Of a stretch of 64,000 nucleotides of DNA, positions 4,588 to 23,183 are shown piece by piece. The notes under the pieces are model-generated. The model saw only the letters and a program-made list of their open reading frames with translations. It did no database searches and was not told the DNA's origin. Position numbers and translations under genes: made by a program. Source of the DNA: Flavobacterium gelidicaeli (GTDB taxonomy: Bacteria > Bacteroidota > Bacteroidia > Flavobacteriales > Flavobacteriaceae); the NCBI RefSeq assembly GCF_013294005.1, contig NZ_JABSNK010000004.1, positions 1-64,000 on the forward strand. The letters are read 5' to 3'. Position 1 is the first letter of the stretch, and every line of letters starts with the position of its first letter.

Positions 4588-5814
4588 TTAAACTAATTGT
4601 TTTAAAGCGATTTCAAAAGCAGTGGCACTAATATTAGTTTTGCTGCTGTTTAACGCATGTGCTTTAACGATTGCATTTTTAATGATTTCTGAAGTATCTT
4701 GAAAGATCGCTTCATCAGTCATTTGAACTTTTTTCTCCATGAAGTAAGCAAAAACTCTCGCCATACCACAGTTAGAAATAAAGTCAGGAATCAAACTTAC
4801 TTTGTGATCTACATCCTCCATGATTGGTCCGAAAAAGATTTCTTTATCAGCAAACGGAACATTCGCACCACAAGAAATTACTTCAAGTCCGCTAGCAATC
4901 AAACTATCAATTTGGTCTTGTTGTACTAATCTTGACGCGGCACACGGTGTGAAAACTTCAGCACCAATAGTCCATATTTTTTTATTAATTTCGTCAAAAG
5001 GGATCATGTTCTCTGCAACTAATTTGTTACCGTCTTTGTTTAAGAAAAGGGTTTTGATTTCTTCAAAAGAAAAACCTTCTTCGTTAATCAAGCCACCATC
5101 TCTATCAATGATACCTACAACTTTTGCACCCATGTCAGCAAGATAAAAAGCAGCTGCAGATCCTACGTTTCCAAAACCTTGCACGATTGCTTTTTTACCT
5201 TTTACATCTCCTCCATAAGTGGTGTAAAAATGACGAACAGCTTCAGCAACACCGTATCCAGTAATCATGTCAGCAATAGTATATTTGCGAGCAACATCTG
5301 GTGAGAATTTTGGGTTTTCGATTACCTTAACAACACCCTGACGCAATTGACCTATACGGTTGATTTTATCAGCTTCAGTAGGTTTAAAATGACCATTAAA
5401 AACACCTTCCTGTGGGTGCCAAACACCACATTCTTCCGTCATGGGAATTACCTCGTGAATTTCGTCAACATTTAAATCACCACCTGTTCCATAATAACTT
5501 TTTAATAACGGAGAAACAGCTTTGTACCAGCGTTGTAATACGCCTTTTTTTCTAGGGTCGTTAGGATCAAAATTAATTCCAGATTTAGCGCCTCCAATTG
5601 CAGGTCCAGAAACCGAAAACTTAACTTCCATTGTTTTAGCTAAAGACAAAACTTCGTTCATGTCTAAACCTTTTCTCATTCTAGTACCACCACCAGCTGC
5701 ACCACCACGTAGCGAGTTGATTACTGTCCACCCTTCGGCTTCCGTTTCGGCATCTTTCCAGTTAAAAACAATTTCAGGTTCTTTATTTTCGAATTTCTTT
5801 AGTAAATCTTTCAT
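4588..5814 (-). CDS. Glu/Leu/Phe/Val dehydrogenase (probable glutamate dehydrogenase)
   Basis: An amino-acid dehydrogenase that interconverts glutamate (or a branched or aromatic amino acid) with its 2-oxo acid and ammonia, using NAD(P). In 408 residues the substrate domain carries PAIGGAKSG (Lys77) and GTGGDLNVDE (Asp113). The Rossmann domain has GFGNVG at 213-218. The family motif is usually GGGKGG or GGAKGG, and here the last Gly before Gly79 is Ser78. A -7 box TATATTTG (5839-5846, minus) precedes the ATG by 24 bases. It is monocistronic with a strong terminator. Which amino acid is used cannot be decided, so no gene symbol is given. Confidence 0.85.
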   Translation of the reverse strand: MKDLLKKFENKEPEIVFNWKDAETEAEGWTVINSLRGGAAGGGTRMRKGLDMNEVLSLAKTMEVKFSVSGPAIGGAKSGINFDPNDPRKKGVLQRWYKAVSPLLKSYYGTGGDLNVDEIHEVIPMTEECGVWHPQEGVFNGHFKPTEADKINRIGQLRQGVVKVIENPKFSPDVARKYTIADMITGYGVAEAVRHFYTTYGGDVKGKKAIVQGFGNVGSAAAFYLADMGAKVVGIIDRDGGLINEEGFSFEEIKTLFLNKDGNKLVAENMIPFDEINKKIWTIGAEVFTPCAASRLVQQDQIDSLIASGLEVISCGANVPFADKEIFFGPIMEDVDHKVSLIPDFISNCGMARVFAYFMEKKVQMTDEAIFQDTSEIIKNAIVKAHALNSSKTNISATAFEIALKQLV

Positions 5815-6489: not shown

Positions 6490-6635
6490 ACTAAAAAATT
6501 TTATTTGTTTGGTTTCGTTGGCAAAAGTACTACACAATTTTAAATCAATTTCATAAAAATATCTTAGAATTGATGTCAAATCAGTAGAATTATGGATTTT
6601 ATTTGTTTTTTGCTTAAAAACAAATAAAAATGGAT

Positions 6636-7703
6636 TTAAAAATCATAAATCGTTCCTGAACTGTGATTTTTTGATGCTCCAGTTACACTTTTTAAAATAT
6701 TAATTTCGTTTTTTAATCTTAAAACACCTAAAAGTGCAAATATTAACGCTTCTTTAAATTCTAAAATTCCTTTAGCTGGGATAATAATCTTTAAATCTGG
6801 CAATAAATTATTTATACGAGATATAAGGTATTGATTGTAAGCGCCTCCACCTGTAATTAATAAACTGCCTTTTTTTAAAGGAAGTGCCGCAGCTGTTTGC
6901 TGTGCAATATGTTCAGTAAACGTATTTAGTTTATCTTTTATTGTGATTTTATAAGATTCAATGATAGGTAGGACTGTTTCTTTTACAAATTCAAAACCTA
7001 ATGATTTAGGAAAACTCTTTCTATAGAAGTCTAAATCATTCAATTCAGCAAGTAACTCTTGATTTATTGTACCTTCTTTTGCAATTTGCCCTTTGTCATC
7101 ATAATCTAATCCTAATTTATTTGCATAAAAATTCAAAACAGTATTTACCGGTGCAATGTCAAAAGCAATTCGTTCGTCGTTATTATTAAATGAAATATTA
7201 GAAAACCCACCAAGATTCATACAATAATCATATTCTGAAAATAACAGTTGATCACCTATGGGGACTAGTGGAGCACCTTGACCACCAAGTTGAACATCTT
7301 TAACCCTAAAATCACAAACTACTTTTTGACGGGTTAATGAAGCAATATCAGGAAGGTTTCCTATTTGTAAAGTGATGCCTTTGTGTGGTTGGTGCAAAAT
7401 AGTGTGTCCATGAGAGCATACGGCATCTAGATTTACAATAGCATTTTTTTCTATAAAGTTGTTTATGATATTAGCAAGAAGTATTGTGTACTCTTGATTT
7501 AGTTCCTCTAAAGCCTTTGTAGAGAAATTTACAGCTATTTTTAGTCTTTCAAGCCATAGCTTATTATAAGGTATAGTTGCTATTTCTTTAATTTTAAACT
7601 TCCAAATAGTGTTTATTACCGAAAATTCAATGTGGGCTAAATCGACTCCATCGAGAGAAGTTCCTGACATTACTCCGATAACGTTATAGTATTCTTCTTT
7701 CAT
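6636..7703 (-). CDS. anmK: anhydro-N-acetylmuramic acid kinase
   Basis: AnmK phosphorylates and hydrolyses 1,6-anhydro-MurNAc released during cell-wall turnover to give MurNAc-6-phosphate. The 355-residue protein begins with the ATP-binding signature MSGTSLDGVD (residues 12-21), contains LGGFSNIS and AFDIAPVN in the catalytic part, and has the C-terminal nucleotide-binding motif LLITGGGAYNQYL. Length is normal for the family. It is transcribed divergently from the acyl-CoA dehydrogenase gene across a 224-base gap. No other recycling gene (murQ, nagZ, ampG) is in the window. Confidence 0.93.
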   Translation of the reverse strand: MKEEYYNVIGVMSGTSLDGVDLAHIEFSVINTIWKFKIKEIATIPYNKLWLERLKIAVNFSTKALEELNQEYTILLANIINNFIEKNAIVNLDAVCSHGHTILHQPHKGITLQIGNLPDIASLTRQKVVCDFRVKDVQLGGQGAPLVPIGDQLLFSEYDYCMNLGGFSNISFNNNDERIAFDIAPVNTVLNFYANKLGLDYDDKGQIAKEGTINQELLAELNDLDFYRKSFPKSLGFEFVKETVLPIIESYKITIKDKLNTFTEHIAQQTAAALPLKKGSLLITGGGAYNQYLISRINNLLPDLKIIIPAKGILEFKEALIFALLGVLRLKNEINILKSVTGASKNHSSGTIYDF

Positions 7704-7725
7704 TGGTCAAAATTGTTAATCGCTA

Positions 7726-7756
7726 TTGAAAATTTCACAATAAAAAAGTATCTTTG
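7726..7756 (+). promoter_or_regulatory. promoter, probably for the acyl-CoA dehydrogenase gene
   Basis: TTG at 7726-7728 and TATCTTTG at 7749-7756 are separated by 20 bases, within the 17-23 spacing of the Bacteroidota sigma-ABfr-type promoter. It would give a leader of about 165 bases before the ATG at 7928, unusually long for this window. The leader is A-rich and no clear structure was recognised in it. Confidence 0.5.
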
Positions 7757-7927
7757 ACTACTTTTTTTATAGATAAAGAAAGGAATTTTAAACAACATAT
7801 AATAGTCATCAATTCTAAACTGTGAAATAAATGTTTTTATCTAAATGTAACGCGTAAAATTACATTAAAAAACACTATTTTGTAATAATAAGAATTAAAA
7901 AAAAAATAATAAAAAAGAAATAGAATT

Positions 7928-9067
7928 ATGGATTTTAATCTAACCGAAGAACAATTAATGATTCAACAAGCAGCTAAAGATTTTGCTGTAGCAGAATTGT
8001 TGCCAGGAGTTATTGAACGTGACGAACATTCAAAATTTCCAACTGAACAAGTTAAAATGATGGCCAATTTAGGCTTCATGGGAATGATGGTAGATCCTAA
8101 ATATGGTGGATCAGGATTAGATAGTATTTCCTATGTTCTTGCAATGACTGAAATCGCTAAAATAGATGCTTCTGCAGCGGTGATTATGTCAGTTAACAAC
8201 TCATTAGTATGTGCAGGTCTAGAGAAATATTGTAGTGAAGAGCAAAAAATGAAATATTTAGTTCCTTTAGCAAAAGGAGATATAATTGGTGCTTTTTGTT
8301 TATCTGAGCCAGAAGCTGGTTCTGATGCAACTTCTCAAAAAACAACTGCAATTGACAAAGGGGATCACTATTTATTAAACGGAACTAAGAACTGGATCAC
8401 TAACGGGTCTTCGGCATCTACCTATATTGTCATTGCACAAACAGATATCGAAAAAGGACACAAAGGAATCAATGCTTTTATCGTTGAAAAAGGATGGGCA
8501 GGGTTTGATGTTGGTCCTAAAGAAAAGAAAATGGGTATTCGTGGATCAGATACACATTCATTAATGTTTAATGATGTAAAAGTTCCTAAAGAAAATAGAA
8601 TTGGTGCTGATGGATTTGGATTTGCGTTTGCAATGAACGTCTTGAATGGAGGAAGAATTGGTATTGCTTCTCAAGCATTAGGAATAGCAACCGGAGCTTA
8701 CGAGATTGCATTGAAGTATTCTCATGAAAGAAAAGCATTTGGTAAAGAGATTTTCAATCACCAAGCTATTGCTTTTAAATTAGCTGATATGTATGTAAAA
8801 GTTACTGCAGCTAGATTGTTAGTAATGAAAGCAGCTTGTGAGAAAGATGCAGGTATGGATATTGCACACTCTGGAGCAATGGCAAAATTATATGCTTCTG
8901 AAATTGCTTTAGAAGTAGCAAACGAAGCGGTACAAATTCATGGAGGTAACGGATACGTTGCTGAATACCATGTAGAACGTATGATGCGTGACTCCAAGAT
9001 TACTCAAATTTATGAAGGAACTTCAGAAATTCAAAGAATTGTAATTTCAAGAGGATTAACTTCATAA
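7928..9067 (+). CDS. acyl-CoA dehydrogenase (short-chain / butyryl type)
   Basis: An FAD enzyme that introduces the 2,3-double bond into acyl-CoA in beta-oxidation or branched-chain catabolism, passing electrons to ETF. The 379-residue length and collinear motifs are typical: GAFCLSEPEAGSDA in the middle domain, GIASQALGIATGAYE in the C-terminal helical domain, and YEGTSEIQR near the end, in which Glu363 is the expected catalytic base as in short-chain enzymes. The ATG at 7928 is preceded by an A-rich stretch. It is followed by its own terminator. Chain-length preference is not readable beyond the SCAD-like active-site arrangement. Confidence 0.9.
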   Translation: MDFNLTEEQLMIQQAAKDFAVAELLPGVIERDEHSKFPTEQVKMMANLGFMGMMVDPKYGGSGLDSISYVLAMTEIAKIDASAAVIMSVNNSLVCAGLEKYCSEEQKMKYLVPLAKGDIIGAFCLSEPEAGSDATSQKTTAIDKGDHYLLNGTKNWITNGSSASTYIVIAQTDIEKGHKGINAFIVEKGWAGFDVGPKEKKMGIRGSDTHSLMFNDVKVPKENRIGADGFGFAFAMNVLNGGRIGIASQALGIATGAYEIALKYSHERKAFGKEIFNHQAIAFKLADMYVKVTAARLLVMKAACEKDAGMDIAHSGAMAKLYASEIALEVANEAVQIHGGNGYVAEYHVERMMRDSKITQIYEGTSEIQRIVISRGLTS

Positions 9068-9091
9068 CATAAGATTTACATAAAATATTTT

Positions 9092-9130
9092 AAAATCCAT
9101 TTTCCTTAACTAGGGAAATGGATTTTTTTT
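9092..9130 (+). terminator. terminator of the acyl-CoA dehydrogenase gene
   Basis: AAAATCCATTTTCC (9092-9105) pairs with GGAAATGGATTTT (9114-9126) with one bulged T, followed by more T. It begins 25 bases after the stop. Confidence 0.8.
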
Positions 9131-9141
9131 TGCTACTACTG

Positions 9142-9175
9142 TTGTAGAATATTTTATTTGTTTTGTTTATTTTTG
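9142..9175 (+). promoter_or_regulatory. promoter of the SDR gene, predicted leaderless
   Basis: TTG (9142-9144), a 23-base spacer and TATTTTTG (9168-9175) match the Bacteroidota promoter consensus. Only four bases separate the -7 box from the ATG at 9180, so transcription should start at or within a base or two of the start codon. Confidence 0.55.
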
Positions 9176-9179
9176 TATC

Positions 9180-9857
9180 ATGAAAAATATTATAATTACA
9201 GGAACAAGCAGAGGAATAGGGTATGAGCTAGCGTTGCAATTTGCAAATGCAGGACATCAGGTTTTAGCTATTTCTAGAAAAACACCAGAGGCATTGCTAT
9301 CACATAAAAATATAAATTGTTTGTCAGTTGATTTGTCAGATGAGTCACAATTAGATAAAGTAGTAAATTTCCTTTCGGCAATATGGAAAAACGTTGATGC
9401 GGTTATTCACAATGCAGGAAGTCTAATTAATAAGCCTTTTGAACAATTAACACAAGCTGACTTTGAAAACGTATATAAAGTAAATGTTTTTGCTGTAGCA
9501 AATTTAACACGCGTTTGTATTCCATACCTTCAAAAAGGAAGTCACGTAGTAACGATAAGTTCGATGGGTGGCATCCAAGGAAGTCTTAAGTTCCCTGGGC
9601 TAGCAGCATATAGCTCGAGTAAAGGAGCAGTGATTACGTTATCAGAATTATTAGCAGAAGAATACAAAGAAAAAGGAATCTCATTTAATGTTTTGGCATT
9701 AGGATCAGTACAAACAGAAATGTTACAAGAAGCTTTTCCAGGTTACCAAGCGCCAATTCAAGCTAACGAAATAGCGGACTATATTTATAATTTTACCCTA
9801 ACAGGAAATAAATATTTTAACGGAAAAGTGTTGCAGGTTTCTTCTACTAATCCATAA
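9180..9857 (+). CDS. SDR family oxidoreductase
   Basis: A classical short-chain dehydrogenase/reductase of 225 residues. It has the cofactor motif TGTSRGIG at 7-14, NNAG-like HNAG at 77-80, a catalytic serine near 127-128 and the YxxxK pair Tyr144/Lys148 (YSSSK). The C-terminus, VQTEMLQEAFPGYQAP..., is usual for the family. Substrate is unknown. The ATG lies four bases behind a -7 box, so a leaderless mRNA is likely. The SprT-like gene follows after 15 bases and is probably co-transcribed. Confidence 0.88.
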   Translation: MKNIIITGTSRGIGYELALQFANAGHQVLAISRKTPEALLSHKNINCLSVDLSDESQLDKVVNFLSAIWKNVDAVIHNAGSLINKPFEQLTQADFENVYKVNVFAVANLTRVCIPYLQKGSHVVTISSMGGIQGSLKFPGLAAYSSSKGAVITLSELLAEEYKEKGISFNVLALGSVQTEMLQEAFPGYQAPIQANEIADYIYNFTLTGNKYFNGKVLQVSSTNP

Positions 9858-9872
9858 AAGTTACTATAAGTT

Positions 9873-10472
9873 TTGATTGAAACACTTGCTAAATATATTC
9901 CGGAACATGCTGTTAAACCTGTATTTGATTTAATAGTTGGCAATCAAGTGCATTTAAAAATTGTAAATGAACGTGCTACACGCCATGGTGATTATAGAAA
10001 AGGTCCTAGCGGCAAACATGAAATAACGGTTAATTCAAGTTTGAATAAATACAAATTTTTAATAACGCTTATTCACGAAATTGGTCACTTAGTTGCTTTT
10101 GAAAAGTTTGGTAGAAAAATCAAGCCGCATGGCCAAGAGTGGAAATACACATTTCAACAATTAATGGTGCCTTATATTAGACCAGAGATTTTTCCAAATC
10201 ATCTTTTACCATTACTAGCGAAGCACTTTAGAAATCCTAGTGCAAGTAGTGATACTGATGCGACTTTAGCGCTCGCTCTAAAGCAATTTGACAAGAAAAA
10301 TGATAACAACTACGTTTTTGAAATTCCGTTTGGTAGCGTTTTTAGAATCAAAAACGGTAAGATATTTAAGAAAATGGCGGTGCGAACAAAGCGTTTCGAG
10401 TGTCTAGAAATAAGTTCAGGAAAATTGTATTTGTTCAATCCAAATGCAGAAGTTGAATTACTACCAAATTAA
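9873..10472 (+). CDS. SprT-like zinc metalloprotease domain protein
   Basis: A 199-residue cytoplasmic protein with the metal-binding motif HEIGH (68-72) and a third candidate ligand His86 in KPHGQEW, the arrangement of SprT/Spartan-type domains. These are associated with stress or DNA-protein-adduct proteolysis in eukaryotes; bacterial members are mostly uncharacterised. The C-terminal third (about 130-199) is a small beta-rich region ending in a FNPNAEVELLPN tail. The start is taken as TTG at 9873, because no ATG lies between the upstream stop at 9857 and the conserved N-terminal region. It forms an operon with the SDR gene. Confidence 0.8.
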   Translation: MIETLAKYIPEHAVKPVFDLIVGNQVHLKIVNERATRHGDYRKGPSGKHEITVNSSLNKYKFLITLIHEIGHLVAFEKFGRKIKPHGQEWKYTFQQLMVPYIRPEIFPNHLLPLLAKHFRNPSASSDTDATLALALKQFDKKNDNNYVFEIPFGSVFRIKNGKIFKKMAVRTKRFECLEISSGKLYLFNPNAEVELLPN

Positions 10473-10475
10473 AAA

Positions 10476-10512
10476 AAAAACGGAGACTGATTTTATATCT
10501 ATCTCCGTTTTT
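10476..10512. terminator. bidirectional terminator between convergent genes
   Basis: AAAAACGGAGA (10476-10486) pairs with TCTCCGTTTTT (10502-10512). A-run and T-run flanks make it usable on both strands. It lies between the SprT-like gene and the convergent ABC transporter gene. Confidence 0.8.
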
Positions 10513-10538
10513 ATATAGTATTATTTTTGAAATTACTA

Positions 10539-11300
10539 TTACACCCTTAAATACGCTTCTCTTACTTTTCTGAAAAGGTTAGAGGAGTAAACAAAGTCAA
10601 CAACATCTTCATTATCTGTTCTAAAAATTTCGTCTTTGTTTCCTTGCCATGCTTTGATACCGTTTTTTAGGAATAAAATGTTATCTCCAATCTCCATAAC
10701 CGAATTCATATCATGTGTATTGATAACGGTTGTGATGTCATATTCTTCAGTAATTTCCTTGATTAAATTGTCAATTAACGTTGCCGTATTTGGATCTAAG
10801 CCTGAGTTAGGTTCGTCACAAAAAAGGTATTTAGGCTTGTTAACGATGGCTCTTGCAATTGCAACACGTTTTTGCATTCCTCCTGAAATCTCCGAAGGTA
10901 ATTTGTTGTGAGCATCTTTTAAAGCAACTCTTTCAAGTACAAAATCAACACGTTCTTTTATTGCCGCTCTATTGTCTTTGGTGAACATTTTTAATGGAAA
11001 AGCTACATTTTCGGCAACAGTCATGGAGTCAAATAAGGCACTTCCTTGAAAAACCATTCCTATTTCTGTACGTAATTCTCTTTTTTCGTCATCTTCTAAT
11101 TCTGAATATACCCTTCCGTCAAAACAAATTTGCCCTGATTCTGGTGTGTGTATTCCGAGAAGACTTTTTAGTAAAACAGTTTTACCTGATCCACTTTGTC
11201 CGATGATTAAATTTGTTTTTCCAGTTTCGAAAACAGTCGAAATACCTTTGAGAATTTTGGTTCCACCAAATGATTTCTCTATATTTTTTATTTCTATCAT
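10539..11300 (-). CDS. ABC transporter ATP-binding protein, MlaF-like
   Basis: The ATPase subunit of an MCE/Mla-type lipid transporter at the inner membrane. From the ATG at 11300 (253 residues) the order is Walker A GQSGSGKT (34-41), signature EISGGMQKRVAIARA, Walker B YLFCDEPNSGLDP and the switch histidine in NTHD. ATG 11298-11300 overlaps the permease stop in an ATGA junction, so the two are translationally coupled. The frame is open 20 codons upstream, but that extension lies inside the permease gene and is not expected to be used. The MCE (MlaD) subunit that usually completes such a system is not in the window. Confidence 0.88.
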   Translation of the reverse strand: MIEIKNIEKSFGGTKILKGISTVFETGKTNLIIGQSGSGKTVLLKSLLGIHTPESGQICFDGRVYSELEDDEKRELRTEIGMVFQGSALFDSMTVAENVAFPLKMFTKDNRAAIKERVDFVLERVALKDAHNKLPSEISGGMQKRVAIARAIVNKPKYLFCDEPNSGLDPNTATLIDNLIKEITEEYDITTVINTHDMNSVMEIGDNILFLKNGIKAWQGNKDEIFRTDNEDVVDFVYSSNLFRKVREAYLRV

Positions 11301-12046
11301 GCTCCTAGTAACAATTGGGTTAAAATATAGTTGAAAAGTATGATACATACAGCTGTCCAAACAAAGGCTACTGTACTTGCTTTTCCTACTTCAAGTGCGC
11401 CACCTTTCATATAATATCCATGAAATGAAGGTATTGTTGCTAATAACATTGCGAAAATCAATGTTTTTATAAATGCGTATGCAATGTGAAACGGAATAAA
11501 TTCCATTTGTGCTCCTAAAATAAACTGATCACTTGAAGTGAAACCACCGTAAACACCAGCTACCCATCCTCCTAGGATTCCTAAAAACATACTGATACCT
11601 ATTACAAAAGGATACATTAGTAAAGCAATAATTTTAGGGAAAACCAAGTAATTTAATGAATTAACACCCATTACTTCAAGCGCATCAATTTGTTCGGTAA
11701 CACGCATGGTTCCAATACTAGAGGTGATGAATGATCCCATTTTACCCGCCATAATAACGGAGATAAAAGTGGGGGCAAACTCTAGAATTACTGACTGTCT
11801 AGTTGCAAACCCAATAAGGTATTTGGGAATCAATGGGTTCGTAAGGTTGAGTGCTGTTTGTATGGCAACAACTCCTCCTACGAAGAAAGAGATAAAAGCA
11901 ACGATTCCTAATGAGTCGATGATTAAATCGTCTATTTCTTTAAAGATTAATTTTTTCATTACAGACCATTTGGTTTGCTTAATGAAAATTTCTCGTAGCA
12001 TTAAAAAGTAGCGACCTACTTGTGATAAATATCGAATGAGCATCAT
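11297..12046 (-). CDS. MlaE family ABC transporter permease
   Basis: A polytopic inner-membrane protein of 249 residues with about five hydrophobic segments and the MlaE-family features VGGVVAIQTALN near 58-69, PTFISVIMAGKMGSFITSSIGTMRVTEQIDALEVMG in the middle and a long C-terminal helix. The MRVTEQIDALEVMG stretch is the conserved coupling region. In proteobacteria this module moves phospholipids between the two membranes. It overlaps the ATPase gene by four bases (ATGA). Substrate in this organism is inferred from the family only. Confidence 0.88.
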   Translation of the reverse strand: MMLIRYLSQVGRYFLMLREIFIKQTKWSVMKKLIFKEIDDLIIDSLGIVAFISFFVGGVVAIQTALNLTNPLIPKYLIGFATRQSVILEFAPTFISVIMAGKMGSFITSSIGTMRVTEQIDALEVMGVNSLNYLVFPKIIALLMYPFVIGISMFLGILGGWVAGVYGGFTSSDQFILGAQMEFIPFHIAYAFIKTLIFAMLLATIPSFHGYYMKGGALEVGKASTVAFVWTAVCIILFNYILTQLLLGA

Positions 12047-18089: not shown

Positions 18090-18902
18090 ATGATTAGTTT
18101 TAAAAGAGTTTTTGATTTTTACATTCGCAGCAGTATTCATGTGGCTTTATCAGTATATGCATTAGTGCGAATGACCCATTTTATGTTCAACATAAAGGAA
18201 GATGTACCTATGGCAAATTTTGCTTTTTTGGGTACAATTGTTGGGTATAATTTTGTGAAGTATGATGCTTTGGCTAGAGCCAAAAAAAGAGTAATGCGCA
18301 ACGAGCTGAAACTAATTGCAACATTGAGTTTTGTGTCGTTACTTGGTGTAGCCTATTACTTTTTTCAACTTGAATTGATTACGCAAATCGTTTCTGTTGG
18401 AGTTTTGGGTTTGACATTGTTATATACCCTTCCATTTTTTCCAAATAGAAAAAATGCTAGAAACTGGGCTGGAATCAAAATTTATATTGTGGCTTTGTGT
18501 TGGGTAGGAGTGACTTTAGTACTGCCATTGTTGAATGCACATGTTTCTCTAGGAAATGATTTTTTTCTAAAATGCATCCAACGCTTTATTCTTGTTTTTG
18601 ATTTGATCTTAGTTTTCGAAATATTAGATTTAGCCAATGATGACCCACATTTGCAAACGGTCCCACAGCAAATAGGGGTGAAACGAACTAAAATCACTGG
18701 TTTGTTGCTTTTAATTCCGTTTTATTTTTTAGAATTTTTGAAAAATAATTTTATTGAAGAACAATTAATTGTCAACGGAATTCTAGTACTAATACTTGCT
18801 TTATTTTTGGCTTTCGCCAATGAAAAACGTTCTAAATATTACACTTCTTTTTGGGTCGAAAGTATTCCTATTTTCTGGTGGCTGATGGTGGTTTTCTTTT
18901 AA
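18090..18902 (+). CDS. UbiA-like polytopic membrane protein
   Basis: A 270-residue integral membrane protein with about eight hydrophobic segments. Its size, topology and the motif DLANDDPHLQTVPQQIGVKRTK (about residues 184-205) resemble the second aspartate-rich region and following TLP..G segment of UbiA prenyltransferases. The first region, normally NDxxDxxxD, would fall at GYNFVKYDALARAKKR (50-65) and retains only one aspartate, so prenyl-diphosphate binding by the usual mechanism is doubtful. It is convergent with the SRPBCC gene (22-base gap, no terminator seen). It may be a divergent enzyme or a non-catalytic relative. Substrate unknown. Confidence 0.6.
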   Translation: MISFKRVFDFYIRSSIHVALSVYALVRMTHFMFNIKEDVPMANFAFLGTIVGYNFVKYDALARAKKRVMRNELKLIATLSFVSLLGVAYYFFQLELITQIVSVGVLGLTLLYTLPFFPNRKNARNWAGIKIYIVALCWVGVTLVLPLLNAHVSLGNDFFLKCIQRFILVFDLILVFEILDLANDDPHLQTVPQQIGVKRTKITGLLLLIPFYFLEFLKNNFIEEQLIVNGILVLILALFLAFANEKRSKYYTSFWVESIPIFWWLMVVFF

Positions 18903-18924: not shown

Positions 18925-19377
18925 TTACTTGGTTTCAGAAACCAATTTTAAACAGGCATTTCTTTCGATCAAGAAGTTCGTAAGATGTCTCTTTAGAAAT
19001 AGTAAATCAAACAATTTTCCGAAAATTCCAAACGGAGTTTCGTATTCCATCACATCTTTCATAATCGTTTGTCCATCAATTTCTTCAAAGAAATGTTGGT
19101 GCTTGAAGGATTTGAAATGACCTTTTAATTGTTCGTCTACAAAATAAGAGTACAACTCCATTTGAGATATAATGCTTTGATGTTGTAGAAAGAAGCCAAA
19201 ATGCTTACCTCTCCAAGTTACGGTTTCTCCTTTATTGATCAATCCGTGTGTTGTTCCTGCTATGGCAACCTCACTAGTTTTACTTGCAGATTTTTGGTGT
19301 GTATCAATATTTCGAGCATGATCAAAAACGATTTGAATAGGGGCTTTTATTTTCGTGGTTATGTTTATGATTGACAT
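18925..19377 (-). CDS. SRPBCC (START-like) family protein
   Basis: A 150-residue soluble protein with the helix-grip fold of the SRPBCC superfamily. It starts with IINITTKIKAPIQIVFDHARNIDTHQKS, continues with GETVTWRGKHFGFFLQHQ in the middle and a DVMEYETPFGIFGKLFDLLFLKRHL segment before the long C-terminal helix, the usual order for ligand-binding SRPBCC proteins. Ligand unknown, probably hydrophobic. It is the last gene of the six-gene operon; its start codon overlaps the preceding stop by one base, so it is translationally coupled. Confidence 0.8.
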   Translation of the reverse strand: MSIINITTKIKAPIQIVFDHARNIDTHQKSASKTSEVAIAGTTHGLINKGETVTWRGKHFGFFLQHQSIISQMELYSYFVDEQLKGHFKSFKHQHFFEEIDGQTIMKDVMEYETPFGIFGKLFDLLFLKRHLTNFLIERNACLKLVSETK

Positions 19378-19772
19378 TATTGTTCTTTAAAATTTAGTTT
19401 AAAAATAAACCCTGAAATTATTGATGAAATCGAATAAGACCATATAACATCTTTCATCATACTTCCTTTTATTATCATTGCAGTTATTAAAATACCACAA
19501 ACTGCAAATGCAACTAAAATTATTTTCGCATATTTTTCTTTAGTATTTATCTGTCCTAAAAAACGATATAAAAAACTATAAAGAATATATGTTGGTATTG
19601 AAAAAGCTAAACTAAAAATTAGCGCTATTGGATATACTTCTAATAAACCAACAATTTTATTTGAATTCAAAATTGTAATATACATTATTATCTGTGAAAT
19701 AAATGGAGCTATTAATAATGTACTGAACCAATGTTTAAATAAATAATTCCACTTTATGTTTTTTGGTGCCAT
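19377..19772 (-). CDS. small membrane protein, unknown function
   Basis: 131 residues with four predicted membrane helices, of the DUF2798-like or general small integral-membrane appearance. A lysine- and tryptophan-rich N-terminus (APKNIKWNYLFKHWF) precedes the first helix. No catalytic motif is visible and the family was not recognised with confidence. The gene starts one base behind the TIGR01777 gene and overlaps the SRPBCC gene by one base, so it is an integral part of the operon. Confidence 0.65.
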   Translation of the reverse strand: MAPKNIKWNYLFKHWFSTLLIAPFISQIIMYITILNSNKIVGLLEVYPIALIFSLAFSIPTYILYSFLYRFLGQINTKEKYAKIILVAFAVCGILITAMIIKGSMMKDVIWSYSISSIISGFIFKLNFKEQ

Positions 19773-19773
19773 T

Positions 19774-20679
19774 TTATAATAGATTTTTCAAGGCTTTTTC
19801 TAGCGTATTAAATTCAAATTCAAATCCGTTTTCTTGCAATCGTTTCGGAATCACATTTCTGCTTTTTAAAACCAATTCAGTTTCTGTTCCGATGATTTTT
19901 GCTCCAATTTTTAACAGGAACTCAGGTGTTGGTAATCCGATGAAAACGTTCAATTGTTTTCGTAATTGCGCCATGAAATTTGTATTAGAAATAGATTGAG
20001 GTGAAACAATGTTGATAACGCCTGTCATTTGTTTTTCGATAATAAAATCAATGGCTCTAGCAAAATCTTCGGCATGAATCCAACTGATGAATTGGTTTCC
20101 TTTTCCCTGTTTTCCTCCCAATCCAAATTGGGTTAATCGTTTTAAAGGGATAAAAGCACCGCCATTTTTACCCAAAACGATAGAGGTGCGCAAAGCGGTT
20201 TTTAAGGTATTTGGCGTTGCAGTTTTAAAAAAAGCTTTCTCCCAAGATTGCGCTACATTCATCGAAAAATCATTGCCAATTTCTCCATTTTCCTCGCTCA
20301 TTTGTTTGTCTAATGAAAAACGATAAATGGTTGATATTGATGAGTTTAGCCAGTGTTTTGGTGGGTTAGTGCATGCGAGTACGGCTTGGTTAAGTACTTT
20401 GGTACTTTGAATGCGTGAAAGCAATATTTCTTTTTTGTTCTTTTCGGTGTAGCGACAATCCACAGATTTTCCTGCGAGATTAATTAAAACAGTGGCGTTT
20501 TCTAATTCTGTTTCCCAACCTGTCAATGTTTTGGCATCCCAATTGACCAATTTAATTTTGCCGTTTACACTGCTTTGTCCGCGTGTAAGAATGACGATTT
20601 CGTCAAATTTATTTTCGAAATGATTCACTAGAACTTGACCTAAAAATCCTGTTCCTGCTGCTATAATAAGTTTTTTCAT
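19774..20679 (-). CDS. TIGR01777 family NAD(P)-dependent epimerase-like protein
   Basis: A 301-residue extended-SDR protein. It has the cofactor loop AAGTGFLGQ at residues 7-15, INLAGKSVDCRYTEKNKKEI (the TIGR01777 signature around 87-106), LNSSISTIY where Ser-Thr-x-x-Tyr would sit, and a C-terminal DUF1731-like segment ending in LEKALKNLL. The family (YfcH, SulA-like cell-division homologues) has no established reaction. It is the fourth gene of the operon, four bases behind the DCC gene and one base before the next. Confidence 0.85.
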   Translation of the reverse strand: MKKLIIAAGTGFLGQVLVNHFENKFDEIVILTRGQSSVNGKIKLVNWDAKTLTGWETELENATVLINLAGKSVDCRYTEKNKKEILLSRIQSTKVLNQAVLACTNPPKHWLNSSISTIYRFSLDKQMSEENGEIGNDFSMNVAQSWEKAFFKTATPNTLKTALRTSIVLGKNGGAFIPLKRLTQFGLGGKQGKGNQFISWIHAEDFARAIDFIIEKQMTGVINIVSPQSISNTNFMAQLRKQLNVFIGLPTPEFLLKIGAKIIGTETELVLKSRNVIPKRLQENGFEFEFNTLEKALKNLL

Positions 20680-20683
20680 GATG

Positions 20684-21505
20684 TTATAAATTTATGATGA
20701 TGACCAATGCGATTATTCGATACAAAATCCATGTTAGGGTTAAATATTTGGGTAGTTCTAATAGGCTAATTCTTCTATAATGTTCGTAAATCATAAAATT
20801 CACGGTTAATCCAAACCAACCTAAAATAAAATAATCATTTAGATCAAAATAACTGTTTAAGATTAATATCGGTAACAAAAGCAAACTTCCTATTATGGAA
20901 ACAGTGACTAAATTGCCTATGTAGTTAAGTTGTTTCTGTTTGTCTAATTTTTGTGTAAAAATCGCTTGAAAACCTATTTGTCCCACTGCTAAAAGTAGTT
21001 CTCTTACGAAAGTCCCTTTTGGTAAAAATACAATCAATTCTGCATATTGAAATAAAACTAATGCTGTAAATAAAGTAGCAAATGCAATATAGAATAAACG
21101 GTATTTTGTATTGAAATCTGGAATGCAATTTATCTTGTGTTCGGCCTTCGTTTTGCTAGGAACAATTACTTTTCGGTTGTAAGAGATGAATTTGTATAAC
21201 TTTTTCAAAAAGTAATTTATGGGTTTCCAATTACCTATTTTCTCCATCCAAGGAAAAGAATTCCCAATTACTTTGAGTAAACTGTCAATTCCGTAATATA
21301 CTTTTTGGTTTACTTTATCGACTAAAGCGATTTCGTTTTTGGCTCTTTCTAAATCAATGTAGTTTTCTTCTTCGGTTGTTATATTTACAAATGGTTTTCT
21401 ACCTTGATTATCTAACATATTTGCTTTGATGAATGTTGAGGTGTACATGTTGCACATTGGGCATTCTTCATCGTAAAGAAGGGTGTGGTTGTCTAAAGTT
21501 TTCAT
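20684..21505 (-). CDS. DCC1-like thiol-disulfide oxidoreductase with membrane domain
   Basis: 273 residues. The N-terminal thioredoxin-like DCC domain begins LLYDEECPMCN, with Cys15 and Cys18 as the redox pair in the YDExCPxC motif. The C-terminal 130 residues contain about four hydrophobic helices, so the redox domain is tethered to the membrane. The gene overlaps DUF2071 by an ATGA junction. DCC proteins are often fused or linked to quinone or epimerase-like genes, but the physiological partner here is unknown. Confidence 0.8.
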   Translation of the reverse strand: MKTLDNHTLLYDEECPMCNMYTSTFIKANMLDNQGRKPFVNITTEEENYIDLERAKNEIALVDKVNQKVYYGIDSLLKVIGNSFPWMEKIGNWKPINYFLKKLYKFISYNRKVIVPSKTKAEHKINCIPDFNTKYRLFYIAFATLFTALVLFQYAELIVFLPKGTFVRELLLAVGQIGFQAIFTQKLDKQKQLNYIGNLVTVSIIGSLLLLPILILNSYFDLNDYFILGWFGLTVNFMIYEHYRRISLLELPKYLTLTWILYRIIALVIIINL

Positions 21506-22212
21506 TTTATTTCTCTTTTATTTTCAACACTAATCTCAGAACCTTTTGCGAAAATGACCGATGTTGGGATACTATTTTTCAAAAAGTCAAATTCATTGCC
21601 ATAAGTCGTATTAAAGTCAACGTCAATTTTATGATTTATAACTTTTAGTTGTTGCCATCGTGGGTGTTTTACTTCGTACTCAAAAGTTTTAGTTTCGGTT
21701 ATTTTGGTGTATCCAAAGTAATGTTCTGTGATGAACTCCGCTTCTGAATCAATTGCAATATCCAATGCTGTTTTTTCTGTTTCGATTAGAATAGAATTCC
21801 ATTTTTCGTTTGTTTTCCATTGGTACTCATAATTATTTGAATCTGCATTTTGAAGTACGGAATGTTTCATCGGTAGCGTTTGGTAATGCTCTTTGTAAAC
21901 TGTGTTTGCAACAAAAGTTAAGGCAGGTTTGGGAACAATTTCTTTTATAAAAACAACACCGCGTTTCCATTTTCCATCTTCAAATCTCTTTACATAGAAT
22001 CGTAAATTTACTTCTTCAAAATTCACATGAAACGGAATTTTGAATCCTAATATTTTGACATTTTCAAACATAAATCCGACTAAGCTCACATAGCATTTGC
22101 CATTATATAGTTCGATTTCAGTTCCTTTTGGGATATATTTTTCTAATAGACTAGCGTTAACTTCATAGTTGATTAAGGCTAGATTGGTCCAATTTGCTTT
22201 TAAGAAACTCAT
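21502..22212 (-). CDS. DUF2071 family protein (YqjF-like)
   Basis: A 236-residue cytoplasmic protein of the DUF2071/YqjF family, with the characteristic opening of a short stretch followed by LLEKYIPKGTEIELYNGKCYVSLVGF, then NLRFYVKRFEDGKWKRGVVFIKEIVPK. The fold is beta-rich and no enzymatic activity is established for the family. Second gene of the operon, two bases behind the small membrane protein and overlapping the DCC gene by four bases. Confidence 0.82.
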   Translation of the reverse strand: MSFLKANWTNLALINYEVNASLLEKYIPKGTEIELYNGKCYVSLVGFMFENVKILGFKIPFHVNFEEVNLRFYVKRFEDGKWKRGVVFIKEIVPKPALTFVANTVYKEHYQTLPMKHSVLQNADSNNYEYQWKTNEKWNSILIETEKTALDIAIDSEAEFITEHYFGYTKITETKTFEYEVKHPRWQQLKVINHKIDVDFNTTYGNEFDFLKNSIPTSVIFAKGSEISVENKREIK

Positions 22213-22214
22213 AG

Positions 22215-22529
22215 TTAGGATTCTTTAGGTAAATAAATTAATATCGATAAGTAAGCACAAAGTGCGGGGGGTAAGATCCAAATCCAACCTGAAGTTAGAT
22301 TGAAACTTATGCAAATGAAAAATAAGACAACAAAAACGAAATAGATTTTAATATCATTGTTTTTCGGGAATTTCATGAAATAAGAAACTCCTATAATTAA
22401 TTGAATGATACCTGTTAATATCGTTGAAATCATTGCCAACCCGAGTAAGTCGGTAATAAATAAACCAACAATAACAAAGAGTAACGGAATCATAATTGCA
22501 ACTGTATTTAATACTTTTAGAAAATTCAT
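22215..22529 (-). CDS. small four-helix membrane protein, unknown
   Basis: 104 residues with about four hydrophobic helices (roughly 8-26, 30-49, 60-78, 82-100) and no recognised motif. It is the first gene of the six-gene operon: the ATG at 22529 lies 17 bases from an inverted repeat (22546-22571) that is the same as the one in front of the regulator gene. Its position as promoter-proximal gene suggests a role as a membrane component of whatever the operon does. I do not recognise the family. Confidence 0.6.
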   Translation of the reverse strand: MNFLKVLNTVAIMIPLLFVIVGLFITDLLGLAMISTILTGIIQLIIGVSYFMKFPKNNDIKIYFVFVVLFFICISFNLTSGWIWILPPALCAYLSILIYLPKES

Positions 22530-22545
22530 AACTTTAAATATTTTT

Positions 22546-22571
22546 AAACTTTCAGAAAAAAATGAAAGTTT
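22546..22571 (-). promoter_or_regulatory. probable GbsR-type operator, site 1 (operon)
   Basis: A perfect 9-bp inverted repeat AAACTTTCA (22546-22554) and TGAAAGTTT (22563-22571) with an 8-base AT spacer. It lies between the regulator stop (22591) and the start of the first operon gene (22529). The same 9-bp arms with the same 8-base spacing occur at 23120-23145 upstream of the regulator. Two sites with identical arms and spacing are most simply explained as binding sites of the adjacent regulator dimer. Confidence 0.7.
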
Positions 22572-22590
22572 TAGTTAAATTTTTTTGTTC

Positions 22591-23094
22591 TTATTTCATA
22601 AACTTCACAACTAGCTTTGTCAACCAATTGTCTTTGTATTCTGTGATTTTATCCAATACATTATCGGCTTTTAAAACGAAATCATATAATTTAGTCGTTT
22701 GATCTACAAAGTGTTTTTCTTCTGCTGTTTGATTCGCAGTGATCGACGATACTTCTTTTAAAACTTTCAAAGCAGGTTTGATTTCTCTTTTGCTTCTTTC
22801 TCTTGCTATTTTAACGGCTAATTCGTCTAAGTCTTTTTCAGCTGTGAAAAACTCTCTGCGTTCTCCCGCTTTGTATTCTTTGTAAACGATGCCCCAATCC
22901 ATCAAAGCGCGTAAGTTCATGCTGGCGTTACCGCGGGAAATTTGCAATTCTTCCATCACATCTTCCATAGAAACTGGTTCTGCTGAAACCATTAAAAGAG
23001 CGTGAATTTGCGCCATGGTTTTATTAATTCCCCATTGCGACCCAAGTGCTCCCCAGGTTTGTACAAACTTATTTTTTGCTTCACTGAATTCCAT
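22591..23094 (-). CDS. GbsR/MarR family transcriptional regulator
   Basis: 167 residues from the ATG at 23094; an open extension of 25 codons upstream crosses the promoter and operator and is not used. The winged-helix region (about 25-95) reads QIHALLMVSAEPVSMEDVMEELQISRGNASMNLRALMDWGIV. It is of the GbsR subgroup, which binds ligand-responsive inverted repeats. The C-terminal half is helical, for dimerisation. A promoter with TTG and TACATTTG (23099-23129) overlaps operator site 2, and the six-gene operon starts 62 bases downstream behind site 1. Autorepression and joint control are inferred from this layout. Signal unknown. Confidence 0.85.
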   Translation of the reverse strand: MEFSEAKNKFVQTWGALGSQWGINKTMAQIHALLMVSAEPVSMEDVMEELQISRGNASMNLRALMDWGIVYKEYKAGERREFFTAEKDLDELAVKIARERSKREIKPALKVLKEVSSITANQTAEEKHFVDQTTKLYDFVLKADNVLDKITEYKDNWLTKLVVKFMK

Positions 23095-23098
23095 AGTA

Positions 23099-23129
23099 CA
23101 AATGTATGTAAAAGTTTTTAAACTTTCAA
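23099..23129 (-). promoter_or_regulatory. promoter of the GbsR-type regulator gene
   Basis: Minus strand TTG (complement of CAA at 23127-23129), a 20-base spacer and TACATTTG (complement of CAAATGTA at 23099-23106), four bases before the ATG at 23094. The -33 element lies inside the operator (23120-23145), so a bound regulator should block polymerase. Confidence 0.65.
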
Positions 23130-23145
23130 AAATAAATGAAAGTTT
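23120..23145 (-). promoter_or_regulatory. probable GbsR-type operator, site 2 (autoregulation)
   Basis: AAACTTTCA (23120-23128) and TGAAAGTTT (23137-23145) with an 8-base spacer, the same arms and spacing as at 22546-22571. It covers the -33 region of the regulator's own promoter. Confidence 0.7.
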
Positions 23146-23157
23146 ATTTAAAAAAGA

Positions 23158-23183
23158 AAACCGAAGCATTTCTACTTCGGTTT
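23158..23183 (-). terminator. terminator of the M3 peptidase gene
   Basis: AAACCGAAG (23158-23166) pairs with CTTCGGTTT (23175-23183). The A-run to its left gives a T-tail on the minus strand. It lies about 50 bases behind the stop at 23235. Confidence 0.75.

Follow-up and report, generated by a model that had tools for sequence, protein, structure and literature searches.

What would a transcriptional regulator do with two copies of its presumed binding site, one on either side of its own gene? A 64,000-nucleotide stretch of the Flavobacterium gelidicaeli genome (contig NZ_JABSNK010000004.1, positions 1 to 64,000 – hereafter the window) raises this question. Its minus strand encodes a 167 amino acid regulator (22591–23094) and, downstream of it, a six-gene operon. 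The inverted repeat AAACTTTCA-N8-TGAAAGTTT occurs upstream of the regulator gene as candidate operator O1 (23120–23145), which overlaps the −33 TTG in the promoter of that gene. A second copy, candidate operator O2 (22546–22571), lies between the regulator stop codon and the first operon gene. A prediction made earlier from the sequence alone (the original prediction) held that the regulator acts on both itself and the operon through these sites.

Drawing on sequence, conservation and co-occurrence, we consider it probable that a GbsR-type repressor controls this gene cassette – as we call the operon and its counterparts in other genomes – through two operators. The repressor would act as a homodimer on two operators whose arms are identical. 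Bound at O1, it would mask the −33 element of the regulator promoter and thereby limit its own synthesis, while at O2 the same protein would keep the downstream cassette off. The cassette would be read through from the regulator promoter, with O2 serving as a roadblock, as in Bacillus subtilis GbsR; a second lock would be needed, since a promoter under autorepression has to leak if repressor is still to be made. A small-molecule inducer would free the repressor and open both locks. What would be released is a set of fast-changing membrane proteins and enzymes (DUF2071, DCC, TIGR01777 and SRPBCC families; elsewhere a fatty-acid desaturase or S-adenosylmethionine (SAM) methyltransferase). GbsR-type repression, autoregulation and roadblocks are already known. 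Our literature search, which covered few subscription journals, found nothing on this module, either for GbsR with Flavobacterium or for the partner families together. To our knowledge, several of the partners (DUF2071, DCC and the small membrane proteins) have no known role, and a common repressor whose loss should switch the partners on together would offer a direct way into those roles.

The regulator and its candidate operators

Several lines of evidence agree with the predicted GbsR-type identity of the regulator. The protein matches MarR_2 above the Pfam cut-off, and a profile of 20 of its relatives finds Mj223 (PDB 1KU9; E = 3.4e-23, residues 3–154), a near full-length match. The predicted structure (mean pLDDT 88) has 1KU9 as its top Foldseek match (E = 2e-9, TM-score 0.61 by query). 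Mj223 serves as a template for GbsR-type proteins (PMC7396694, PMC6207618). The regulator scores 54.3 bits against the CudC equivalog model, whose cut-off is 218. Since Mj223 is matched in both sequence and fold and the CudC score is low, the regulator is assigned on these grounds to the GbsR type, outside the choline equivalog; the match fits a winged helix-turn-helix followed by a C-terminal helical domain. Among the six operon proteins, Pfam and NCBIfam scans identified no product of gbsAB or opu genes, which would have pointed to the choline/osmostress subgroup, and none of cydAB, which would have pointed to a CydE-type regulator and for which wider neighbourhoods were not searched. Among the matches listed, the nearest named relative is 98% identical and comes from Flavobacterium sp. 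7A.

The predicted pair of repeats is present with identical arms and spacing: the 26-bp repeat has two matches in the window, O1 and O2, both with 0 mismatches. When up to three mismatches are allowed, a shuffled sequence gives 0.34 matches on average, and 6 of 100 shuffles have as many as two. Support from approximate matching within the window alone is thus moderate, and the weight comes from other evidence. Across the 4.06 Mb genome, the only perfect copies of the 22-bp core ACTTTCA-N8-TGAAAGT are O1 and O2. Weaker core matches appear to be mostly chance, because 47 places match with up to two mismatches as against 37 for a backwards control. A larger regulon was rejected: the genome holds no further exact core, and all five sites with one mismatch fall inside stop-to-stop frames, 181–709 codons long (individual inspection extended to one mismatch).

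Consistent with the repeats belonging to the regulator, they are conserved with it. We searched 36 other genomes of the genus, 15 with the regulator and 21 without, and found the exact core in 13 of the former and one of the latter. Nineteen of the 20 exact copies flank the regulator gene, the exception being in G017; the backwards control yielded 3 copies. Beyond the genus sample, we assembled the best 80 of at least 584 confirmed relatives, the window and 19 further regions, giving 100 loci, or 98 once two exact duplicates were dropped. Sites were called as TTTCA-N8-TGAAA with at most one mismatch, within 160 bp upstream of the regulator gene (O1) or within 170 bp after its stop codon (O2). 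By this rule O1 is present in 96/98 loci and O2 in 91/98 (exact cores in 94 and 89, respectively), compared with 110/1960 and 99/1960 Markov-shuffled controls – a chance rate of about 5%. When all 18 arm positions are scored, at least 14 agree in 95/98 upstream sites and in 37/1960 shuffled sequences. Sites were seen in loci from Flavobacterium, Aestuariibaculum, Zobellia, Dokdonia, Leeuwenhoekiella, Pedobacter, Fulvivirga and Rhodocytophaga. Among the carriers of the module is F. johnsoniae strain CI04 (L083). By eye, most of 24 further loci sampled across the phylum have O1-like repeats upstream; one (L211) has neither site, and three (L203, L209, L214) have no O2 in the 85 bases inspected.

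Two considerations temper these counts. The 98-locus set leans to close kin, mostly relatives of Flavobacterium, so its counts are not independent; and two genomes, G023 and G027, encode the regulator yet lack the exact core, with near-matches at both places. We nonetheless regard the regulator and two operator-like sites as well conserved in Flavobacterium and several relatives, and the comparison bears out the predicted conservation: both repeats accompany the regulator in related species, and genomes that lack it seldom have an exact core. The chance that the repeats are accidental, or members of a general repeat family with no tie to the regulator, is practically negligible. The sequence is AT-rich and imperfect matches are common (12 found against 9.7 expected, and the 47 against 37 given above), but the co-occurrence of repeat and regulator, the position of the repeats and the lack of any other exact core in the genome contradict it.

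GbsR-type proteins are expected to bind AT-rich inverted repeats by their own or target genes; here such a repeat is conserved with the regulator gene, whose product would be the candidate binder. B. subtilis GbsR (acting on gbsAB and opuB) and OpcR (acting on opuB and opuC) are likewise GbsR-type MarR repressors with AT-rich operators, and the operator of GbsR, too, is an inverted repeat (PMC7396694). In that species GbsR sits at a roadblock position and OpcR over the −35 region (PMC7396694), whereas in the window a single protein seems to occupy positions of both kinds within the same locus. The spacer also differs – 8 bp here, 4 bp in the gbsAB operator – and no choline or osmoprotectant genes were identified among those for the six operon proteins scanned here. 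OpuAR and a Bacteroidetes GbsR subgroup belong to the same family as the regulator. According to PMC6207618, the gene neighbourhoods of Bacteroidetes and archaeal members gave no consistent picture; in contrast, the neighbourhood described here is recurrent, if variable, and has a defined operator in one Bacteroidota clade. A conserved operator, a two-site layout and a recurrent pool of partners would together make a testable regulon for the Bacteroidetes branch of GbsR.

Proposed control at O1 and O2

The regulator has a predicted promoter of the flavobacterial sigmaA type on the minus strand (23099–23129), consisting of TTG (23129–23127), a 20-bp spacer and TACATTTG (23106–23099). As had been predicted, O1 overlaps its −33 TTG. 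The regulator start codon follows the −7 box by 4 bases, from which we infer a near-leaderless transcript. On its own, TTG-N20-TACATTTG occurs 5 times in the window against 2.5 expected. Across loci, TTG occupies the same position of the repeat in 92/96 O1 sites, and in 86 of these a TAnnTTTG follows at a spacing that varies within 6 bp; TAnnTTTG occurs somewhere in the O1 region (−60 to +40 bp) in 89/96 loci. With one mismatch allowed, it stands at promoter distance from 93/96 O1 sites and 24/91 O2 sites. The Bacteroidetes promoter consensus is TTTG/TAnnTTTG, with the −33 part far less evident in F. johnsoniae data (PMC6847099). With TTG and TAnnTTTG so placed, O1 covers the −33 element, the usual position for repression. 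O1 looks like a case of plain autorepression, which we consider very likely. In many loci the O1 spacer itself often contains a perfect TAnnTTTG (TATTTTTG), as it does in the window at 23120–23145. Farther upstream, a terminator-like hairpin (23158–23183, minus strand) lies downstream of an M3 peptidase gene and separates the module from it; it is weak, as 3 such hairpins were found in the region and 2.7 were expected.

O2 tracks the cassette. Ninety of the 98 loci have both, one has a cassette without O2 (L109), one has O2 without a recognized cassette (L133) and six have neither, an association of 90/91 against 1/7 (Fisher p = 4.6e-8, relatedness ignored). By eye, the genes downstream in L133 resemble small membrane proteins. 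Within one genus, Leeuwenhoekiella aequorea has the regulator and O1 with neither O2 nor cassette, and L. marinoflava has all of them. Three genomes (G029, G007 and G199), in which the regulator was not found, keep DUF2071 and SRPBCC genes following the M3 peptidase gene, and just upstream of this pair there is no operator within one mismatch. With two mismatches allowed there is a match in G007 and G199 and none in G029. A decayed operator-like stretch is readable by eye, and the three loci look like the product of one event.

How O2 would act on the cassette is less clear-cut. In the window the gap between regulator and operon is 61 bp and holds O2, with the operon downstream on the same strand; O2 would therefore lie inside any read-through transcript. 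The start codon of operon gene 1 follows O2 by 16 bases. TTG with TAnnTTTG at promoter spacing, found at 86/96 O1 sites, is found at 0/91 O2 sites. Within −60 to +40 of O2, TAnnTTTG, TAnnTTGY and a sigma54-like motif each occur in 1/91 loci; CGT occurs in 27/91, 24 of them 37–59 bp upstream, and in 24/96 O1 regions. These patterns are our renderings of the classes in a F. psychrophilum start-site map (PMC9723704). Conservation bears out the proposed regulon, whereas for an operon promoter with O2 as its operator, none of the flavobacterial motifs searched sits at O2. Because O2 has no recognized promoter, the operon is probably expressed by read-through past a roadblock, or else from a promoter of unrecognized type. 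We prefer read-through from the regulator promoter with O2 as an elongation roadblock for Flavobacterium, a preference we hold at about even odds. The regulator promoter is upstream of O2, and in 88/91 loci the interval between regulator and O2 showed no terminator-like hairpin.

Several features sit uneasily with read-through to a plain roadblock, and the first three are constraints that a roadblock would not need. CTG replaces the TTG of O1 at O2 in 85/91 loci. TTT[AG]A lies at exactly −12 of O2 in 77/91 loci and is accompanied by an A- or T-tract; in the window this is an A-tract with TTTAA (22575–22586, minus strand), 12 bp upstream of the O2 TTTCA, and the block is conserved at O2 and not at O1. 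The start codon lies 37–38 bases from the O2 TTTCA in 46/91 loci (range 21–52). Finally, terminator-like hairpins stand between regulator and O2 in the remaining three loci (L120, L122 and L133), and weaker, less perfect ones can be seen by eye before O2 in L054, L055, L204, L210 and L213; in these loci they disfavour read-through.

These same features would be accounted for if the cassette had its own promoter, of an unrecognized type, with O2 as its operator, so that the repressor blocks initiation at both sites. Such a promoter would comprise TTT[AG]A at −12, about 20 bp, TTTCTGA inside O2 and a short leader to the start codon. The blocks conserved at O2 only, the tight distance to the start codon and the three upstream hairpins speak for it, but the near-absence of TAnnTTTG, TAnnTTGY and sigma54-like motifs near O2, and the distance of most CGT matches, speak against it; we regard it as a serious possibility, short of probable. 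The C of CTG at O2 breaks the TAnnTTTG that the spacer of the repeat often contains at O1. In one locus (L115), a short tandem array of GAAAGTC-like units lies between the regulator stop codon and a degenerate O2.

It is improbable that O2 works in RNA, with the transcribed repeat forming a hairpin before the start codon that controls translation or mRNA stability. In each of the three leaders that were folded, the repeat does form a hairpin of 9 bp, and the narrow distance to the start codon would suit such a role. Yet the O1 copy of the repeat, because it covers the −33 element, would fall outside the expected transcript, upstream of its start, and the window leader folds like its shuffles (z = 0.02; the other two leaders, z about −2). 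This weak fold, and the position of the O1 copy, led us to reject the idea that O2 acts mainly through an RNA hairpin.

A changeable cassette beside a conserved regulator

In the window, the operon runs on the minus strand as a packed unit, as predicted, with gaps or overlaps of 2, −4, 4, 1 and −1 bases. Its genes encode a small membrane protein that we label sMP1 (22215–22529), DUF2071 (PF09844, E = 8.8e-54; 21502–22212), a DCC1-like thiol oxidoreductase domain with a C-terminal hydrophobic part (20684–21505), a TIGR01777 SDR-type oxidoreductase related to SDR39U1 (19774–20679), a second small membrane protein, MP2 (19377–19772), and an SRPBCC-like protein (18925–19377). The last of these carries the operon below 19377, where the original prediction had ended it. 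Pfam and NCBIfam support MarR_2, DUF2071, DCC1-like, TIGR01777 and DUF1731, while SRPBCC (Polyketide_cyc) fell below the Pfam cut-off and the two small membrane proteins had no reliable match. Among solved structures, neither DUF2071 (best E = 0.026) nor SRPBCC (none at 0.1) found a reliable relative.

The six-gene arrangement is not fixed: it is one of 61 different orders of labelled genes among the 91 cassette loci, a count that leaves out unlabelled genes, ends each run at a 450-base gap and includes noise from split or missed frames. Within the genus, the regulator is 81–93% identical to that of the window and GcvP 77–82%, followed by TIGR01777 (64–77%, with one split-gene piece at 55%), SRPBCC (61–70%) and the first membrane protein (30–43% where found). 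The fewest changes that a tree of the 98 regulators requires over these loci are 28 for sMP1, 27 for a membrane protein family labelled MPA, 24 for DUF2071, 23 for SRPBCC, 22 for TIGR01777 and 16 for DCC. Even identical regulators accompany different cassettes in four pairs of loci (L087/L088, L040/L041, L061/L071 and L051/L111). By these comparisons, the cassette changes while the regulator is well conserved – a contrast that is unusual in itself.

DCC and MPA tend to exclude one another (both in 2 loci, DCC only in 17, MPA only in 50, neither in 22; Fisher p = 3.9e-6). This exclusion stays a lead, because in a tree-aware test about 0 of 8 pairs changed in the same direction and 4.2 in opposite directions, with a median p of 0.125. 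A fold search with MPA gave no match at E ≤ 0.001, and homology between MPA and the C-terminal membrane part of DCC, which would have accounted for the exclusion, was rejected (hhalign probability 0.15 percent, from thin alignments of six rows each).

The module also appears outside its main genus. Three Pedobacter loci (L102, L108 and L113) have regulators 79–84% identical to that of the window, together with the operators and MPA genes. On the tree these regulators fall among those of Flavobacterium, with Dokdonia and Leeuwenhoekiella outside and support for the enclosing fork of only 88/82. This nesting suggests horizontal transfer, and the module was likely transferred into Pedobacter. A tentative picture, which we would put below an even chance, is that of a regulated docking site at which membrane-lipid genes are swapped faster than the regulator, DCC or an MPA pair fills one slot, control combines occlusion at O1 with a second lock at O2, and the whole has moved into Pedobacter.

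Possible functions of the cassette

Clues to function come largely from the alternative cassettes. A fatty-acid desaturase (PF00487 in L092) has relatives in 7/91 cassettes, split in L095, and a methyltransferase family with similarity to CMAS also occurs in 7/91, above the Pfam cut-off in the three scanned (L050, L105 and L129). Another desaturase is found in L090 and a methyltransferase in L106. Because these names, with SRPBCC, TIGR01777 and the membrane proteins, suggest acyl-lipid or envelope modification, we think it a fair guess, though not yet the probable answer, that the cassette alters or protects acyl lipids of the envelope. That the argument draws on family names, and on cassette versions absent from the window, weighs against it. 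In Rhodobacter, the furan fatty acid operon RSP1087–1091 is similarly made up of genes for lipid-modifying enzymes, a desaturase among them, and a methylase belongs to that pathway too; levels in that system depend on chrR (PMC7380195). The window and relative proteins scanned had no Pfam match to DUF1365 (UfaO) or of the UfaD type, which sets them apart from that operon.

Compatible with any account of O2, but unlikely, is a role for the cassette in photo-oxidative stress, which would make it a counterpart of the light-induced regulons of photolyase and cyclopropane synthase. In Vibrio cholerae, blue light induces operons for cyclopropane fatty acid (CFA) synthase and the photolyase family (PMC5241685). 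On another contig of the same genome, a cluster of consecutive genes (L185, C8:56001–75000; 6517–11688, minus strand) encodes DNA_photolyase (428 amino acids), the photolyase-related DPRP (511), DUF2071 (244) and a second DNA_photolyase (496); this DUF2071 is 45% identical to that of the window. In one relative (L212), a photolyase-related gene adjoins the module. Against this, a photolyase lies near the module in 1/128 loci (for 29 of which the sequence reaches just about 1.5 kb to either side, and a few of which are counted twice), and the contig with the photolyase cluster has no operator core match within two mismatches. The window has no match to PF00875, in line with the original prediction that no photolyase gene is present there. 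The link to photolyases that it raised is weak at this locus, where we rejected it on the count of 1/128, though a DUF2071 paralogue does lie in the cluster elsewhere in the genome.

Convergent with the operon, the plus strand of the window encodes a 270 amino acid membrane protein (18090–18902) that we take to be UbiA-like; it has no Pfam match. A gene of this kind stands beside the cassette in most loci compared, often next to gcvP. In L117 (relative positions 4874–5697), L118–L123 and L106, a 183 amino acid extracytoplasmic function (ECF) sigma factor, Pfam-confirmed in L106 only, lies between the cassette and the UbiA-like gene, and several of these loci also encode a protein of 80–87 amino acids in the same interval.

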